DNA of 32,277 bases from a virus. Both the position numbers and the translations under genes were made by a program. This document shows, in pieces, positions 3,217 through 14,554 of this stretch (its first letter is position 1; the number at the start of each line of letters is the position of its first letter). The notes beneath the pieces were generated by a model that saw only the letters and a list, made by a program, of their open reading frames with translations, had not been told where the DNA came from and made no database searches. Location of the stretch: the IMG/VR virus record IMGVR_UViG_3300044629_000168, positions 1 to 32,277 of that record. One strand, written 5' to 3'.

Positions 3217-3891
3217 TCATTCCCCCTGTATCTTGGCAATGATCGCCCCAAGGTCCGGCGCTTCCCATGCGTCCAGCCGCCCAGAGCGATCCTTCGCCAG
3301 CCAGAGGCCGTCGCCGTCGCACATCAGCCCGCGCTGCGGCACGCCTTCGGCGTCTTTCTCGACGCGCAGGGCCAGCACCTCGTCGAAGAAGTAAGGCAAT
3401 TGCTGGCCGCTCTTCTGGCCGGGCATGGATGGCGCATAGAGGATGCGACCCATTTCGTCCTGGCTCTTGTCCAGCTTGGCCGACATGTAGACGTGCTTGC
3501 CGGGAAGGTCGCGGAACGCGCGGATAATGTGCGCCATCGCTTCCTGCATTGCGCCGTAAGCCTGACGCGGATCCTTTGCGATGCGCTTTTCGTCGCCGAG
3601 CACAACCTCGGCAATTTCGCTAATGCTATCCAGCGCCACGGACTGATATGCAGCCGCCTCTTCAGAGGCGGTCAGCCATTCAAGAGCGTCCTGCAAATCA
3701 GCGATGTTGCCGATCTCGATGTAGGGCAAATCAGCGCCCGCGATCGACAGAAGGCCAGCCTCTGCTGACAGCGTGATTGGATTTGGAAGTGTGGGAATTA
3801 GGGAAGTCTTGCCCGCGCCGGCTTGTCCGTACACGAGCAGTTTAACGCCATCACGCGCAAGTGCGCTCGTGCGCTTCAAGTTAATCGCCAT
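3217..3891 (-). CDS. AAA ATPase, Sak4-like recombination protein
   Basis: This 224-residue ATPase has Walker A GQAGAGKT (22-29), directly after the strand VKLLVY, and a Walker B-like VALDS (85-89). It resembles the RecA-core Sak4/AAA_24 phage ATPases, which promote single-strand annealing with a phage SSB. The reading frame is open upstream to 4170, but that extension has no family resemblance and would overlap the primase gene. I start at ATG 3891, which gives the normal family length and has GGAAA nine bases upstream. It is the first gene of the leftward operon, with a plausible promoter at 3941-3969. The DUF669 gene two genes downstream may encode its DNA-binding partner. Confidence 0.85.
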   Translation of the reverse strand: MAINLKRTSALARDGVKLLVYGQAGAGKTSLIPTLPNPITLSAEAGLLSIAGADLPYIEIGNIADLQDALEWLTASEEAAAYQSVALDSISEIAEVVLGDEKRIAKDPRQAYGAMQEAMAHIIRAFRDLPGKHVYMSAKLDKSQDEMGRILYAPSMPGQKSGQQLPYFFDEVLALRVEKDAEGVPQRGLMCDGDGLWLAKDRSGRLDAWEAPDLGAIIAKIQGE

Positions 3892-3940
3892 TGTTTCGTT
3901 TCCTGTTTCGCCCTGTCGGCTGATCCGGTCGGGCAGGATG

Positions 3941-3969
3941 TTTATTGCACAGCGTGCACGGATGTGCAA
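3941..3969 (-). promoter_or_regulatory. candidate leftward sigma70 promoter
   Basis: Read on the minus strand, TTGCAC (3969-3964) serves as a -35 box and AATAAA (3946-3941) as a -10 box, with exactly 17 bases between them. This would drive the recombination operon starting at 3891. The -35 matches four of six consensus bases and the -10 four of six, so the match is fair, not strong. The spacing and location support it. Confidence 0.45.
3945..3969. promoter_or_regulatory. candidate operator: TTGCAC, GTGCAC, GTGCAA half-sites
   Basis: TTGCAC (3945-3950) and GTGCAA (3964-3969) are inverted copies. The self-complementary GTGCAC (3954-3959) lies between them. The three words are spaced about one helical turn apart and cover the -35 to -10 interval of the candidate leftward promoter, in the gap between divergent replication operons. 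A repressor or autoregulatory replication protein could bind here. The binding protein is not identified in this window. Confidence 0.45.
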
Positions 3970-3996
3970 CCCTGATTTAAACAGGAGACGGAAATC

Positions 3997-5994
3997 ATGG
4001 TGGACGTGACGCAGATATTCGGCGGGCCGTGGCGTCTGCCGACGCCGGTGGCGATCGACGAGCAGATCCGCCAGGCGATGGCGTCGGCAGGCATAACACC
4101 GCCACCGTCGATAGAGATGGATGGCAAGCTGCATCGCTACGCAACCGGCAGCAAAGGCCAGCCGGGCCACGACAAGCCGGGATGGTATGTGTTCTTCCCC
4201 GATGGCGTTCCGGCGGGAATGTTCGGCGATTGGCGCACTGGTGCTTCCAGCACGTGGCGCGCGGACATTGGTCGTGAATTAACACCGGTCGAGTTGGCAT
4301 CAGTCTCCCGCCGGCAGGCCGAAGCTCGATCGGCCCGCGATGCCAAAGCGGCCAGCGCCGCCGATAGTGTGGAGCTGATCTGGTCACAAGCGGGAGCCGC
4401 CAGCCCGGATCATCCCTACCTTATGCGCAAGGGCGTTAGCGCTCATGGCCTGCGCATTACAGGCGACGGCCGCCTGATGGCGCCCCTGTTCAACACGGAC
4501 GGTTCTTTGTCCTCCCTCCAGTACATCGACGCTGACGGGGGCAAGCTTTATCACCCAGGCGGGGCCACTGGCGGCAAATACTGGAGCGTCGGGGCGCTTG
4601 AGGGTGACACGATTTACGTTGCGGAGGGCTTTGCGACAGCAGCCACCATCCACGAGGTGACGGGCCGCCCATGTGTCGTCGCCTATAGCGCATCGAACCT
4701 TGTGCCGGTGACGGGAGCCATTGCCGCGGCTCACCCTTCGGCAAGAGTTGTTATCGTCGCCGACAATGACGCATCCGGCGTCGGGCAGCGTTACGGCGAG
4801 CAGGCCGCCGCAAAGCACGGCGCCCGCCTTATCCTCGTCCCCATCCCCGGCGATGCCAACGATTACCGCGCCGCGGGCCACGACCTCGCGGCATTGCTTA
4901 ACCCGCCGATCGATCAATGGCTGATCCCGGCGGACGACTTTTCCGCCCAGCCCGCGCCGATATCCTGGCTGGTCAAGGGCTGGCTGCAGGATCGGGCCCT
5001 GATCATGGTTCACGGCCCATCCGGGGGCGGCAAGACGTTCCTCGTGCTGGATTGGGTCCTGACAATGGCGTCAGGGGCTCGTCAGTGGAACGGCCGCAAG
5101 GTGCGCCCCGGTCCCGTGGTCTACCTCGCCGGCGAGGGCCACCAGGGCCTGCGGGGCAGGGTAGCGGCGTGGAAGCAGCACCACGGCGTGCTCCGCCTCG
5201 ACATGTGGCTGTCGAAGGGCGGGTGCGACCTGAACACGCGCGAGGGCCTGCGCCGCGTTTCCGACGCCGTCCGGGAGCTTCCCGTTACCCCGGCCGTGAT
5301 CGTGGTCGATACCCTTCACCGCTTCCTGAACGGCGACGAGAACAAGGCGCAGGACGCCAAGACCATGCTGGATGCCTGCGCCGAGCTGATGGAAATCTTT
5401 TCCTGCGCCGTCGTCCTCGTCCATCACACAGGCGTGAGCGACGAGGCCCAGCATCGGGCGCGCGGATCCTCCGCCTGGCGCGGGGCGCTGGATATCGAAG
5501 TATCCGTGGTCCCGCAGGACAACGGAACCATGCAAGTCGTCCAGCGCAAGAGCAAGGACGCCGAGCTGGCCGAGGACATCACCGTTGAGCTGATGTCGGT
5601 CCCGATCACAGGCTGGCTGGACGAGGATGGCGAGCAGGTCACAAGCGCAGTCGTCTCCCTCAGCGAGCGCCAACACCAGCCCAAAGCACACCCCAAAGCG
5701 GGGCAATACCAGCAGACATTCCGGCGCGCGTGGGAGCATGGCGGATGTGTCTGGCGGGATAGTCTCCCCTTCGTTGACAGGGACGCTTTGCGTGAAGTTT
5801 TTCTAATAGATGGAATATCGGAAAAAGCCGTCCGGAACTACCTAAATCCCAACGCCGAACACAAGCCGGTCAGCGTCCTCTTGCAAGCCTCCTACATCGC
5901 ACCGACACAGGGCGGCTGGCACATCGTGCAGGCGGAATGGGTGGCGCAACTCAGGATGGTCAAGAGCGCACCTAGCGCACCTGAGCGCACCTAG
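3997..5994 (+). CDS. TOPRIM primase-helicase (bifunctional replication protein)
   Basis: This 665-residue protein joins two parts. The first is a primase-like half with a TOPRIM domain: conserved glutamate in YVAEGFATA (E210) and the acidic pair in VIVADNDASG (D256, D258). The second is a RecA-fold helicase of the RepA/AAA_25 type: Walker A GPSGGGKT (340-347), Walker B VIVVD (434-438), VHHTG (475-479) and RGSSAWRGALD (489-499). The layout resembles plasmid and satellite replication proteins that unwind and prime at an origin. No zinc-binding cysteine cluster is seen at the N-terminus. AGGAG at 3983-3987 supports the start. Its last codons (SAPSAPERT) are encoded by GCGCACCT repeats belonging to the origin-like cluster that continues past the stop. 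It is transcribed divergently from the recombination operon. Confidence 0.9.
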   Translation: MVDVTQIFGGPWRLPTPVAIDEQIRQAMASAGITPPPSIEMDGKLHRYATGSKGQPGHDKPGWYVFFPDGVPAGMFGDWRTGASSTWRADIGRELTPVELASVSRRQAEARSARDAKAASAADSVELIWSQAGAASPDHPYLMRKGVSAHGLRITGDGRLMAPLFNTDGSLSSLQYIDADGGKLYHPGGATGGKYWSVGALEGDTIYVAEGFATAATIHEVTGRPCVVAYSASNLVPVTGAIAAAHPSARVVIVADNDASGVGQRYGEQAAAKHGARLILVPIPGDANDYRAAGHDLAALLNPPIDQWLIPADDFSAQPAPISWLVKGWLQDRALIMVHGPSGGGKTFLVLDWVLTMASGARQWNGRKVRPGPVVYLAGEGHQGLRGRVAAWKQHHGVLRLDMWLSKGGCDLNTREGLRRVSDAVRELPVTPAVIVVDTLHRFLNGDENKAQDAKTMLDACAELMEIFSCAVVLVHHTGVSDEAQHRARGSSAWRGALDIEVSVVPQDNGTMQVVQRKSKDAELAEDITVELMSVPITGWLDEDGEQVTSAVVSLSERQHQPKAHPKAGQYQQTFRRAWEHGGCVWRDSLPFVDRDALREVFLIDGISEKAVRNYLNPNAEHKPVSVLLQASYIAPTQGGWHIVQAEWVAQLRMVKSAPSAPERT

Positions 5995-6094
5995 GTGCAC
6001 TGGTGCGGGGTTGGCAAAAAGCTAGCAAAATCAGGAAAGGGCCGCACCGCACCGCACCTACTACCTATAGGTAGGTGCGACTGGTGCGCTCTTG
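5961..6094. repeat. origin-like cluster of CGCACC/GGTGCG words with A-rich core
   Basis: Nine exact copies of CGCACC or its complement lie in 134 bases: CGCACC at 5967, 5976, 5986, 6043, 6048 and 6053; GGTGCG at 6002, 6074 and 6083. A variant GGTGCAC is at 5994. The first three are 9-10 bases apart. The outer ends form a perfect 12-base inverted repeat (5961-5972 with 6083-6094). A stem CGCACCTAC/GTAGGTGCG (6054-6062 with 6071-6079) encloses the palindromic TACCTATAGGTA. The A-rich stretch 6012-6040 lies between the two repeat groups. Iterons flanking an A+T-rich tract, next to a primase-helicase gene, resemble a replication origin. A regulatory site or terminator-like stem is the alternative. 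Confidence 0.55.
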
Positions 6095-6174
6095 ATTGCA
6101 GCTTGCTGGTTTTCGGTTGACCACACGCGGCAAGCGATGCACAACGCTCGCCTGACACGAGAGGAGACCACCCA

Positions 6175-6447
6175 ATGAACGAAGCCGAAGCCATCATGGA
6201 ATTCCGCGAAGCGTCCGCCGCAGTACGCCGAGCGTTCGGGGCGCGAGACGATGCCCGCGTTGACCAGATCCTGGCTGACACGCGCATGAGCCAGGCCACA
6301 GTAAATCTATCAGATGCCCAGGCTCGCTTGCATGCCGCCGACATCGCGCTGCAGGCCGCCCGCGCCGAACCGCCAGCGCCGGCTGACATCGACGTGACGC
6401 GCGTCGAGGCCACGATTACCAATGGCGCGGATGGTGGGGCGTGGTGA
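6175..6447 (+). CDS. small helical protein, unknown function
   Basis: A 90-residue, mostly helical, Ala- and Glu-rich protein (many Ala/Arg/Asp in the first 75 residues) ending in a short Pro/Ala stretch. I do not recognise a family. GAGGAG is well placed before the ATG, which supports the start. It is the first gene after the repeat cluster at 5961-6094 and overlaps the next small gene by a few bases, so the two are probably expressed together as early genes. No catalytic or metal-binding residues stand out. Confidence 0.7.
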   Translation: MNEAEAIMEFREASAAVRRAFGARDDARVDQILADTRMSQATVNLSDAQARLHAADIALQAARAEPPAPADIDVTRVEATITNGADGGAW

Positions 6448-7470: not shown

Positions 7471-7473
7471 TTG

Positions 7474-8106
7474 ATGGCGCGTAAAGCATCAAATGATGCG
7501 CAAACTGTAACGTCAACGCGCGCGAAGTGGCCTAGCGACGCGCCAGAACGTCGTTCAGTGGCCAGCCTGATCCCTTACGCCCGGAATGCTCGCACGCACT
7601 CAGAGGCGCAGGTGGCCCAGATAGCGGCCAGCATTCGCGAGTGGGGCTGGACGAACCCGGTGCTGATCGATGAAGCAGGCGGGATCATTGCCGGCCACGG
7701 TCGCGTGATGGCTGCGCGCAAGCTGAAGATCGAGGACGTGCCCTGCATCGTGGCGACGGGTTGGACCGACGCGCAGAAGCGGGCCTATGTGCTTGCGGAC
7801 AACCAGCTGGCGCAGAATGCCGGTTGGGACATGGAATTGTTGAAGGTCGAAATTGGCGAGCTATCCGTTGGCGGCTTTGACGTTGGGCTGATGGGATTTG
7901 ATGGCGCGTTTATCGACATGATGCTGATGGATGGCTTCGCCATTTCGGATGCGCTTGCCGAGATGGATGGAACCGGCAACGAGCCGCTGGCAGAGCGAAC
8001 CATCCACGTTCACTTCAAAAGCGCTTTTCAGGCTGATGAATTCGCGCGCCGCCTCGGCTGCAGCATTACAGACAAAACGAAATCCATATGGTTTCCGCAG
8101 GAATAG
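7474..8106 (+). CDS. ParB-like (ParB/Srx superfamily) protein, no methylase domain
   Basis: The 210-residue protein has a ParB/sulfiredoxin-type domain at about 28-115: the strand SLIPYARNARTH, QIAASIREWGWTNPVLID, then GGIIAGHGRVMAA with the nucleotide-binding G-H-G-R (74-77). In many phages this domain is fused to a DNA methyltransferase, but none is present here. The C-terminus has a separate small module, HVHFKSAFQADEFARRLG ending in DKTKSIWFP. From memory, that module recurs next to glycosyltransferases like the one that follows. ParB-fold phage proteins can bind or hydrolyse CTP/ATP and bind or nick DNA; which applies here is unknown. TTG 7471 is an alternative start. It overlaps the glycosyltransferase gene by 19 bases, which suggests a joint function. 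Confidence 0.85.
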   Translation: MARKASNDAQTVTSTRAKWPSDAPERRSVASLIPYARNARTHSEAQVAQIAASIREWGWTNPVLIDEAGGIIAGHGRVMAARKLKIEDVPCIVATGWTDAQKRAYVLADNQLAQNAGWDMELLKVEIGELSVGGFDVGLMGFDGAFIDMMLMDGFAISDALAEMDGTGNEPLAERTIHVHFKSAFQADEFARRLGCSITDKTKSIWFPQE

Positions 8107-8912
8107 CCCCCCGCTATCCGGTCTATGTTATTTCTAAGGGCCGATGGGAAGCGCGGCCGACATCCAGAGCGCTTGAGCTGATTGCTTGCCCCTATCGGAT
8201 CGTCATCGAGCCTCAGGAATTCGACAGCTACGCGGCAGTCATCGACCCCGCAAAGATCCTCGTGCTGCCATTTTCCAATTTAGGCCAGGGCAGCATTCCG
8301 GCCCGCAACTGGGTCTGGCAGCATTCGATTGATGAAGGCCACGCAAGGCACTGGATCCTTGACGACAATATCGCCGGCTTTCGGCGCTGGCATAAGAATT
8401 CGCGCGAGCGCGTGAGCGATCCGGCGATTTTCTGCGAAGCCGAGAATTTCGTGGATCAATACATCAACGTGCCCATGGCCGGCATGCAATACAGCATGTT
8501 CGCGGTGACTGAGACGACGCGAGCGATCACTAAACCCTTCCTTCTCAACACGCGCGTCTACTCCTGCATGCTTCTATCGAACTCCATTAGCCATCGCTGG
8601 CGGGGCCGATACAACGAGGATACCGATCTGAGCTTGCGCATCCTCAAGGATGGATATTGCACAGTTCTCTTTTACAAATTCCTGTGCGACAAGATGGCGA
8701 CGATGACCATGAAGGGCGGAAATACGGACGAGCTCTATAAGCAGGACGCCGCGTTTGATGGCCGCCTGGAGATGGCAAAGCATCTTTATCGCCAACATCC
8801 AGACGTGACCAAGATCACGCGCAAGTGGGGCCGCTGGCAGCACACCGTTAATTACAAGCCCTTCGCTAACAATCAGCTACTGAAGAAGAGGTCAGCCCAT
8901 GTCCCGGCCTAA
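8088..8912 (+). CDS. TET-associated-type glycosyltransferase (TAGT-like)
   Basis: The 274-residue protein begins PVYVISKGRWEARPTSRALE, then YRIVIEPQEFDSYAA, a pattern I recognise from TAGT, the GT-A-fold glycosyltransferases that decorate modified bases in phage DNA. Candidate catalytic/metal residues are the D-D pair in WILDDN (D92, D93) and the E-D-x-D in YNEDTDLSLRIL (E177, D178, D180). Known relatives act on 5-hydroxymethylcytosine made by TET dioxygenases, or on other hypermodified bases; no such enzyme is encoded here. Parts of the gene are poor in G+C (26 of 60 in 8641-8700), consistent with transfer. It overlaps the ParB-like gene by 19 bases and the terminase small-subunit gene by 14. 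A sugar-modifying role on something other than DNA cannot be excluded. Confidence 0.8.
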   Translation: MVSAGIAPRYPVYVISKGRWEARPTSRALELIACPYRIVIEPQEFDSYAAVIDPAKILVLPFSNLGQGSIPARNWVWQHSIDEGHARHWILDDNIAGFRRWHKNSRERVSDPAIFCEAENFVDQYINVPMAGMQYSMFAVTETTRAITKPFLLNTRVYSCMLLSNSISHRWRGRYNEDTDLSLRILKDGYCTVLFYKFLCDKMATMTMKGGNTDELYKQDAAFDGRLEMAKHLYRQHPDVTKITRKWGRWQHTVNYKPFANNQLLKKRSAHVPA

Positions 8913-12931: not shown

Positions 12932-14554
12932 ATGGCTGATAATGTCGGTTACACACCAGGCGTAGGCGCAACCGTCGCAGCTGACGACATCGGCGGCGTA
13001 TTGCATCAGCGTGTCAAAATCGGCGTGGGCGCCGACGGCGTTGCAACTGACGTCTCCGCAGCCAACCCGATGCCTGTCACGGGGACGGTAGAGGTCACAG
13101 CAGGCACGCCGCTGGATGTCACCGGCACGGTTGCTGTCTCCGGATCCGTCGCGGTCACTGGCGGCCTCACTGACGCCGAGCTGCGTGCATCGCCCGTGTC
13201 AGTCGTGGCGCTTGACCCATCGACGGCGACCAGCTTCGGCCCGATCACCACGGCTAACGTGGTCCTGTTCTCGGCCATCGACACAACCGGCGAGCGGTCG
13301 ATTGTCCTGCAACTGACCGGCCTGTGGGATGGCGCGATCTACCTGCAAGCATCGCAGGATGGCACGACATGGGTCGATGCCATTGGCGTCTGCCAGACGA
13401 ACGAGATAGCGCCATCCAATGTGTTCTACGCGCCCGGCGTGATTGTCGTCCCTGCAACTGCAAGATACTTCCGCGCCATCACGAGCCTTGATTTCACCGG
13501 CTCTGTGTCGGGGCTCTATTCGCAGCGTGCTTTTGACGTCGCCCCGTTTTTCGTCAGGAACACGCTGACGGATGTGTCCAGCGACGTGCGGATGCCAATC
13601 GCGGGCCTCGATCCGCTGGGCAACCTGACGCAAGTGGCGCTGACGGAGAAGGGGCAGGTGATGCCTGCCGATGGGCGGGTCATCACCGGATCGCTGGCGC
13701 GCATCGGCACGATCTGGATGGTGGAGACGACAGGGTTCAACTCGATATCGGTGCAGATATTCGCACAGACTGCATTCGTGGCAACGATGACATTCCAAGC
13801 GTCGAACGACGCGACGACGTGGGCGGCTGTCAATGGATTTAACTCCACTGGACCGCAATCGGGCACCACAACAACAGCCGCCGCTGGACTGTTCATATTC
13901 CCAGCTATTGCTCGTTATTTCCGCGTTCAAATCACGGCCTATTCAAGCGGCATTCCCGCCGCTGTTGGGGTGCTGAAGTCTGCCCCTGCGTTTTTCCCGG
14001 TTTCAACGCCGTCAGTTAACCTCGGCCAGTTAAACACAAACTCAATTGTCACCGCCGCCACGGGCGTCATCGCAGTCGGCGGCAACGTTGCAGTCGGTGC
14101 AGCCCCCACAGCAAGCCCGACCCCGATTGGCGGATGGGACGGCACGAACACACGCCGCATCCTGACCGACGCAGTGTCGGGCGGCATTGCACTGGGTGCG
14201 AACGGAGCCAGCAACGGCTCCACGATGACCACGCTCATCAGCGCGGCAACGAACAACCTCACGCAGCTCAAAGCATCGCTGGGCAAGATCCTCCTGATCA
14301 ACATTCAGAACACGAACGCGGCTGTTCGCTATCTCAAGATATTCAACCTGCCGTCTGCATCGGTGACGATGGGCACGACATCAGCGGTGGGCAATTTTAG
14401 CATTCCCGGCTCTGGCAAGCTTGAGATCGAAACGCCGCTCGGCCTCAACTACGGCGGCACAGGCATATCCTACGCAATGGTCACAGGGTCATCGCTGACT
14501 GACAACACGGCAGTCGGCGCAGGCGACCTGATCGCCAACTTCCAATTCGTCTAG
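12932..14554 (+). CDS. virion-associated protein with two copies of a beta domain
   Basis: The 540-residue protein opens with VGYTPGVGATVAADDIGGVL and AANPMPVTG, a start I recognise from structural proteins of many phages. Two similar beta-sandwich-like segments follow: about 105-200 (SIVLQLTG...LQASQDGTTW...VVPATARYFRAI) and about 245-335 (SISVQIFA...FQASNDATTW...IFPAIARYFRVQI), an internal duplication. The remainder is Thr/Ser/Gly-rich beta. No catalytic motif is visible. It is likely a capsid decoration or neck protein. GGGAGG at 12917-12922 supports the start. It lies between portal and scaffold, where P22 has no such gene. Confidence 0.75.
   Translation: MADNVGYTPGVGATVAADDIGGVLHQRVKIGVGADGVATDVSAANPMPVTGTVEVTAGTPLDVTGTVAVSGSVAVTGGLTDAELRASPVSVVALDPSTATSFGPITTANVVLFSAIDTTGERSIVLQLTGLWDGAIYLQASQDGTTWVDAIGVCQTNEIAPSNVFYAPGVIVVPATARYFRAITSLDFTGSVSGLYSQRAFDVAPFFVRNTLTDVSSDVRMPIAGLDPLGNLTQVALTEKGQVMPADGRVITGSLARIGTIWMVETTGFNSISVQIFAQTAFVATMTFQASNDATTWAAVNGFNSTGPQSGTTTTAAAGLFIFPAIARYFRVQITAYSSGIPAAVGVLKSAPAFFPVSTPSVNLGQLNTNSIVTAATGVIAVGGNVAVGAAPTASPTPIGGWDGTNTRRILTDAVSGGIALGANGASNGSTMTTLISAATNNLTQLKASLGKILLINIQNTNAAVRYLKIFNLPSASVTMGTTSAVGNFSIPGSGKLEIETPLGLNYGGTGISYAMVTGSSLTDNTAVGAGDLIANFQFV

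Follow-up and report, generated by a model that had tools for sequence, protein, structure and literature searches.

A predicted phage replication origin that is exchanged together with the putative reader domain of its primase-helicase

Initiators and Their Repeats

At oriV of RSF1010, iterons are combined with palindromic single-strand priming sites; the 20-bp iterons are read by a separate protein, RepC, and priming is carried out by RepB. The O gene of lambda contains the iterons, which are bound by O dimers through the N-terminal part of the protein; the host helicase is recruited by O. Lambda O/ori pairs a replicon-specific initiator with an iteron array beside the opening region (PMC5043065; PMC4488673), and ectopic copies of ori block lambda infection (PMC4488673).

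In other elements, the initiator and its repeats are more closely tied to each other. For SaPI Rep and SCCmec Cch2, the iterons lie directly after the gene, and the C-terminal domain of the protein binds them; the SCCmec ori is putative (PMC7581432, citing Ubeda et al. 2007). In the RepA/ori modules of Vibrio PLE, the DNA-binding domain and the iterons swap jointly, and cognate pairing has been shown experimentally (PMC8263062, PMC7145576). An ori-cutting nuclease, Odn, may drive this module swapping (PMC8263062).

A Word Array Behind a Primase-Helicase Gene

The DNA analysed here (the window) is a 32,277-base IMG/VR virus record that encodes P22-like portal, coat, and stabilisation proteins and a terminase; with these phage structural genes present, the carrier does not fit a satellite or chromosomal island. 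A gene on the forward strand (3997-5994) encodes a primase-helicase of 665 amino acids, with TOPRIM at residues 206-292, a RepA-like AAA_25 helicase at residues 311-481, and a predicted C-terminal winged-helix domain. The helicase core matches Pfam AAA_25 with an E value of 7e-38 and shows a weak but recognisable relation to the RSF1010 RepA structure (1g8y, E 0.0012). The Pfam hits of the protein include no DUF927 or D5 model and no RepA_N initiator domain.

The divergent operon encodes a Cas4-type exonuclease, a single-strand DNA binding-like protein, and a Sak4-like annealing protein. A ParB-like gene is found at 7471-8106, 1.4 kb downstream of the array described below. This gene, annotated as a ParB-like nuclease, is adjoined by one for a TET-associated glycosyltransferase (TAGT, E 8e-42; window 8088-8912), a hint that the phage DNA might be hypermodified. 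Elsewhere in the window (12932-14554), a 540-aa protein encoded after the portal gene has a sub-threshold match to F5/F8 type C, a carbohydrate-binding-like domain.

The word CGCACC and its inverted form GGTGCG occur 26 times in the window, below the 37.9 copies expected from shuffles. Nine of these copies are packed into 122 nt (5967-6088), where about 0.1 would be expected at the window's own rate, and the other 32 kb hold 17. An initial annotation of this DNA had described a cluster of nine words beyond chance and had asked for a count over the whole genome; both the excess and the scarcity of the word outside the cluster are borne out. An imperfect inverted repeat of 23 nt (5960-5982 and 6073-6095, 87% complementary), which had been overlooked, encloses the cluster and marks the limits of the whole proposed origin at 5960-6095 (unstranded).

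The left block begins with three forward-strand copies of CGCACC (5967-5972, 5976-5981, and 5986-5991), followed on the reverse strand by a tenth, near-copy word, GGTGCA, seen in the sequence at 5994-5999, and by an inverted GGTGCG at 6002-6007 that closes the block. Next comes a spacer with GGCAAAAAGCTAGCAAAATC (6008-6042, forward strand); a GGGGCAAA-like, A-containing spacer is present at the same place in many relatives. The right block (6043-6058, forward strand) holds three CGCACC words, starting at 6043, 6048, and 6053, with one-base overlaps. These overlaps, and the spacings of 9 and 10 bases among the first three words, agree with the initial annotation. A perfect palindrome able to form a hairpin, CTACCTATAGGTAG (6061-6074, unstranded), includes the 12-base inverted repeat TACCTATAGGTA (6062-6073), and two inverted GGTGCG words on the reverse strand (6074-6079 and 6083-6088) make up the right end of the array (6074-6088). 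The 12-base repeat is thus real and perfect as first described, but it does not close the cluster: its place is after the right-hand direct words and before the final inverted pair. It had also been pointed out that the repeats shape the C-terminus of the protein. This holds for the window, where the first three words encode the tail SAPSAPERT, but it is not general, as the arrays of many relatives lie wholly downstream of the stop codon.

With several regularly spaced copies of one word beside a putative initiator gene, the array has the arrangement of an iteron-type origin.

Arrays in Related Phages

How widespread is this arrangement? Scans of viral contigs for encoded relatives, together with phage records and bacterial genomes, gave more than 350 loci, and 269 of them had enough downstream sequence for a word test (a 5-7 nt word with log10 P of at least 6.5, within -150 to +330 of the stop). 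By this test, in which over-representation rests on simple composition models, a strongly over-represented word lies downstream of the gene in 189 of the 269 loci (70%), versus 3.3% of 1076 control windows. Both orientations of the word are used in 180 of these 189 loci. A few of the 189, with the word TGATTGA, resemble coding repeats that arose by chance in a clade without arrays, and they were dropped from later counts.

Words are uniform within a locus and differ between loci. At least 26 six-base words were found, including CGCACC, CGTACC, GGTACC, GGTAAC, GGTACA, GGTTCA, TGACCC, TGCCCC, CGGACC, GGACAA, GGAACA, and GTCACC. The layout, by contrast, is the same throughout: it runs from direct words spaced at about 10 bp through an inverted word, an A-rich spacer of about 25-45 nt, two or three direct words, and the hairpin to two inverted words. 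Contigs binned with Firmicutes, Spirochaetes, and Lentisphaeria still show it, at protein identities of 36-54%. The array itself is conserved in all 15 members of the cluster to which the window belongs (N-terminal and helicase parts alike at 85% or more). The conservation expected by the initial annotation therefore holds for close relatives and, as layout, for distant ones; the word itself is replaced in the latter, which could not be seen from one genome. A blastn search with the array gave no match in phage records, as would be expected if words and spacers diverge, and an exact search for GCGCACCTAGCGCACC in viral contigs returned 34 stretches, the majority with just 2-4 words nearby. The genomes do not avoid their own word elsewhere (observed/expected 1.06).

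GC skew does not tell an origin apart from gene orientation: in four sequenced relatives (L346, L347, L348, and L349), the detrended skew reaches its minimum at the divergent promoter of the Sak4 and primase operons or close to it, at a distance of 1-2.5 kb from the array, and this minimum follows gene orientation.

Two further observations concern individual loci. In L338, L343, L354, and L360, the same helicase ends in a different-looking, shorter C-terminal domain (NSKKQAFxRV...LLExG), and an array of this type lies behind the gene; these loci may represent a second class of reader domain. In L142, ten copies of AGGTCAG occur within about 250 nt (1500-1800), away from the downstream array position.

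Joint Exchange of the C-Terminal Domain and the Array

Primase-helicases that are about 95% identical outside their last ~105 residues carry different words. At a backbone identity (N-terminal and helicase parts) of 85% or more, these last ~105 residues can drop to 30-45% identity, and eight such backbone clusters contain C-terminal domain types with different words. Among pairs with this backbone identity, the word is common to none of the 21 whose C-terminal domains are less than 50% identical, and it is shared in the 257 pairs with C-terminal domains more than 90% identical. Different domain types with a common word are the exceptions, namely L200/L208 (CGGAC) and L268/L270 (TGGACAA).

The exchanged DNA comprises the C-terminal domain and the array. 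Homology of about 90% ends 310-325 nt before the stop codon and resumes after it at 83 nt (L230/L199), 179 nt (L063/L194), or 236 nt (L303/L318); for L230/L199, identity is 90% up to -325 and again from +83. The C-terminal domain and the array are co-exchanged as one cassette.

The Predicted Reader Domain

Does the domain read the words, or does it merely travel with them? In the window, the C-terminal domain covers residues 568-656 (5698-5964, forward strand) and is the segment exchanged between phages. Its AlphaFold model is a winged helix, with a pLDDT of 81 for the isolated domain, and the helix at residues 609-616, the third of the winged-helix fold, appears in both the isolated-domain and the full-length models. 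The structural neighbours of the model are mostly winged-helix proteins with middling Z scores of 5-6, among them the C-terminal part of SaPIbov1 Rep (8tch, Z 5.4). A Foldseek search with the model gave weak matches, none with E below 0.001, and a sequence profile of the domain found no significant match in the PDB.

The residues that track the word across relatives coincide with the predicted recognition helix and the following loop, residues 608-621 (SEKAVRNYLNPNAE; 5818-5859, forward strand). When domain columns were associated with word bases, with the word register set by hand, all seven top columns fell within residues 610-620. A sliding-window partial correlation over 52 types, in which identity in the rest of the domain was controlled and the register was likewise set by hand, peaked at residues 610-621 with a rho of 0.43, versus a maximum of 0.22 in permutations that leave some shared ancestry in the correlation. 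The signal at 610-621 persists among pairs less than 45% identical (rho 0.38), and a weaker peak is seen at residues 568-577. Examples of helix and word are ERTVRNMxNPSY with TGACCC, RSVRNQMDPSRDD with TGCCCC, and EKAVRNYLNPNA with (C/T)GCACC.

Not all relatives have an array. About 68 loci (L060-L081 and others, e.g., L080, L168, and L150) encode a primase-helicase at 55-60% identity and have no word array downstream; a scan for arrays elsewhere in the loci of this clade gave no consistent one. Since the clade keeps the helicase without an array, not every helicase of this type needs one. In these proteins, the segment of the C-terminal domain at the recognition helix is rewritten and often longer. 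A proline that follows the helix (P618) is present in 138 of 170 array-bearing loci, versus 4 of 72 without a detected downstream array. In one of these four, L237, an array lies about 500 nt beyond the usual downstream position, and the sequence of its close relative L239 ends before the corresponding point. In L061 and L062 the helix is kept, yet no array was detected.

The C-terminal domain is best read, from sequence covariation and the predicted fold, as the probable reader of the iterons. The most durable alternative is that the domain and the array co-travel only as neighbours and the domain does not read the words; their adjacency and their exchange as one segment would fit this. Linkage of this kind predicts a similar signal across the whole domain, however, and the observed signal is strongest at the predicted recognition helix, also among pairs less than 45% identical; moreover, loss of the array accompanies a rewritten helix. 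We consider this explanation unlikely.

What Does the Array Do?

Clustered inverted and direct sites can also be operators, through which the primase-helicase or another regulator would control transcription. In Alteromonas, Salicola, and Idiomarinaceae phages, the primase is preceded by small HTH genes, which would fit this reading. Against this, the array is positioned after the gene, with the divergent promoter 2 kb away, and a promoter scan of 3700-6400 found no promoter-like site. In the window, the divergent genes are about 100 bp apart and no HTH gene was seen ahead of the primase, yet the array is present. A role as an operator is therefore very unlikely. As none was seen in the window, an HTH protein encoded before the primase was also rejected as a general reader of the words. 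In L116-L119, a small Cro/HTH regulator gene lies immediately upstream of the primase-helicase.

The hairpin raises the question of whether the array acts as RNA. A perfect stem of 7 bp or more, with an apex resembling CTATAG/CTTTAG, occurs in 79 of 170 array regions and in none of 850 control windows. Among 52 distinct hairpins, all four base-pair types are found at pairs 3-7 from the apex; the stem sequence is free but the palindrome is retained, which points to a structural role. A structured RNA or attenuator formed from the end of the primase transcript would agree with this free stem and conserved apex, and the array strand folds better than shuffles (z -5.05). Yet no terminator-like site lies inside the array, an Rfam search of the window and nine relatives (10 sources) gave no match above the gathering score, and an RNA fold would not need all eight or more words to be identical. 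An RNA element is highly improbable on this evidence. The least credible proposal, a parS-like partition site for the ParB-like protein of 7471-8106, has the proximity of that gene in its favour and can practically be dismissed, given that the word follows the C-terminal domain of the primase-helicase, that the exchanged segment in other phages stops just past the array, and that no ParA was found among the proteins scanned.

The reading that we favour, at a probability of roughly 85%, is that the array is the phage replication origin, or at any rate the site where the replicative helicase is loaded, and is read by the C-terminal winged-helix domain of the primase-helicase. It draws on the analogy with SaPI Rep and Cch2 (PMC7581432) and with the PLE RepA/ori modules (PMC8263062). 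The iteron-type origin beside a replication gene put forward in the initial annotation is thus the best-supported reading, with a word that is not dense elsewhere and an array retained by close relatives. We infer origin activity, direct binding, helicase loading, and a role for the hairpin. Several observations count against this reading: own words are not avoided elsewhere in the genomes, a few domain types have a word in common, one clade lacks the array, L061 and L062 retain the helix with no array detected, the Foldseek matches are weak, and GC skew does not single out the array.

How might such an origin work? The winged-helix domain would bind every six-base word through its recognition helix, and direct words about one helical turn apart, together with the opposing inverted words, would seat several subunits. 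The helicase would be loaded at the spacer, which it would open. The conserved hairpin may present the TOPRIM primase with a start site; that the hairpin is a priming site is a guess.

A broader proposal is tentative, and we hold it at less than even odds. It sees a large phage family with a replication address system, in which the winged-helix reader and its matching words would form a mobile cassette of about 400-550 bp, existing in dozens of mutually non-recognising types. Their diversity would be held by selection (e.g., from satellites, resident ectopic origins, or origin-cutting nucleases), and the hairpin with its CTATAG/CTTTAG apex would be the start signal of the TOPRIM primase. By analogy, ectopic origins (PMC4488673) and origin-directed nucleases such as Odn (PMC8263062) are possible drivers of diversity.

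These results provide a predicted origin for a widespread group of environmental phages, which includes the isolates Salicola CGphi29, Idiomarinaceae 1N2-2, and Alteromonas PB15 and XX1924. The approximately 50 reader-word pairs form a natural data set on how winged-helix domains change their DNA specificity. Near-identical phages that differ in this cassette alone also make it directly testable why phage origins diversify.

Comparison with Known Systems

Lambda O/ori resembles the present system in having a repeat array beside a proposed opening region; unlike in lambda, the helicase and the proposed reader are here one protein. The helicase fold is related to that of RSF1010 RepA (1g8y), but in contrast to the 20-bp iterons of RSF1010, the words are 6 bp long and track the helicase's own C-terminal domain.

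As in PLE RepA/ori, the predicted DNA-binding domain and the repeats swap as a module. PLE RepA differs from the protein in the window in belonging to the RepA_N family, with an N-terminal binding domain and no predicted helicase or primase; its iterons are about 30 bp long, its carriers are satellites, and it has few module types.

The closest parallel is with SaPI Rep/ori and SCCmec Cch2, where, as here, a helicase gene is directly followed by short repeats; in the window, the C-terminal domain is the predicted reader. The differences are also clear. The helicase described here is of the RSF1010 RepA/AAA_25 family and not of the DUF927 or D5 type, it is fused to a TOPRIM primase, and its carriers are phages that have structural genes of their own. 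The many words, the hairpin and its conserved apex, and extensive cassette exchange further set it apart from SaPI and Cch. The system is not a member of the SaPI family, given the different helicase family and the phage carrier. By analogy, it is best read as a SaPI Rep/ori-like arrangement that would work in phages on an unrelated RepA-like helicase with a TOPRIM primase.
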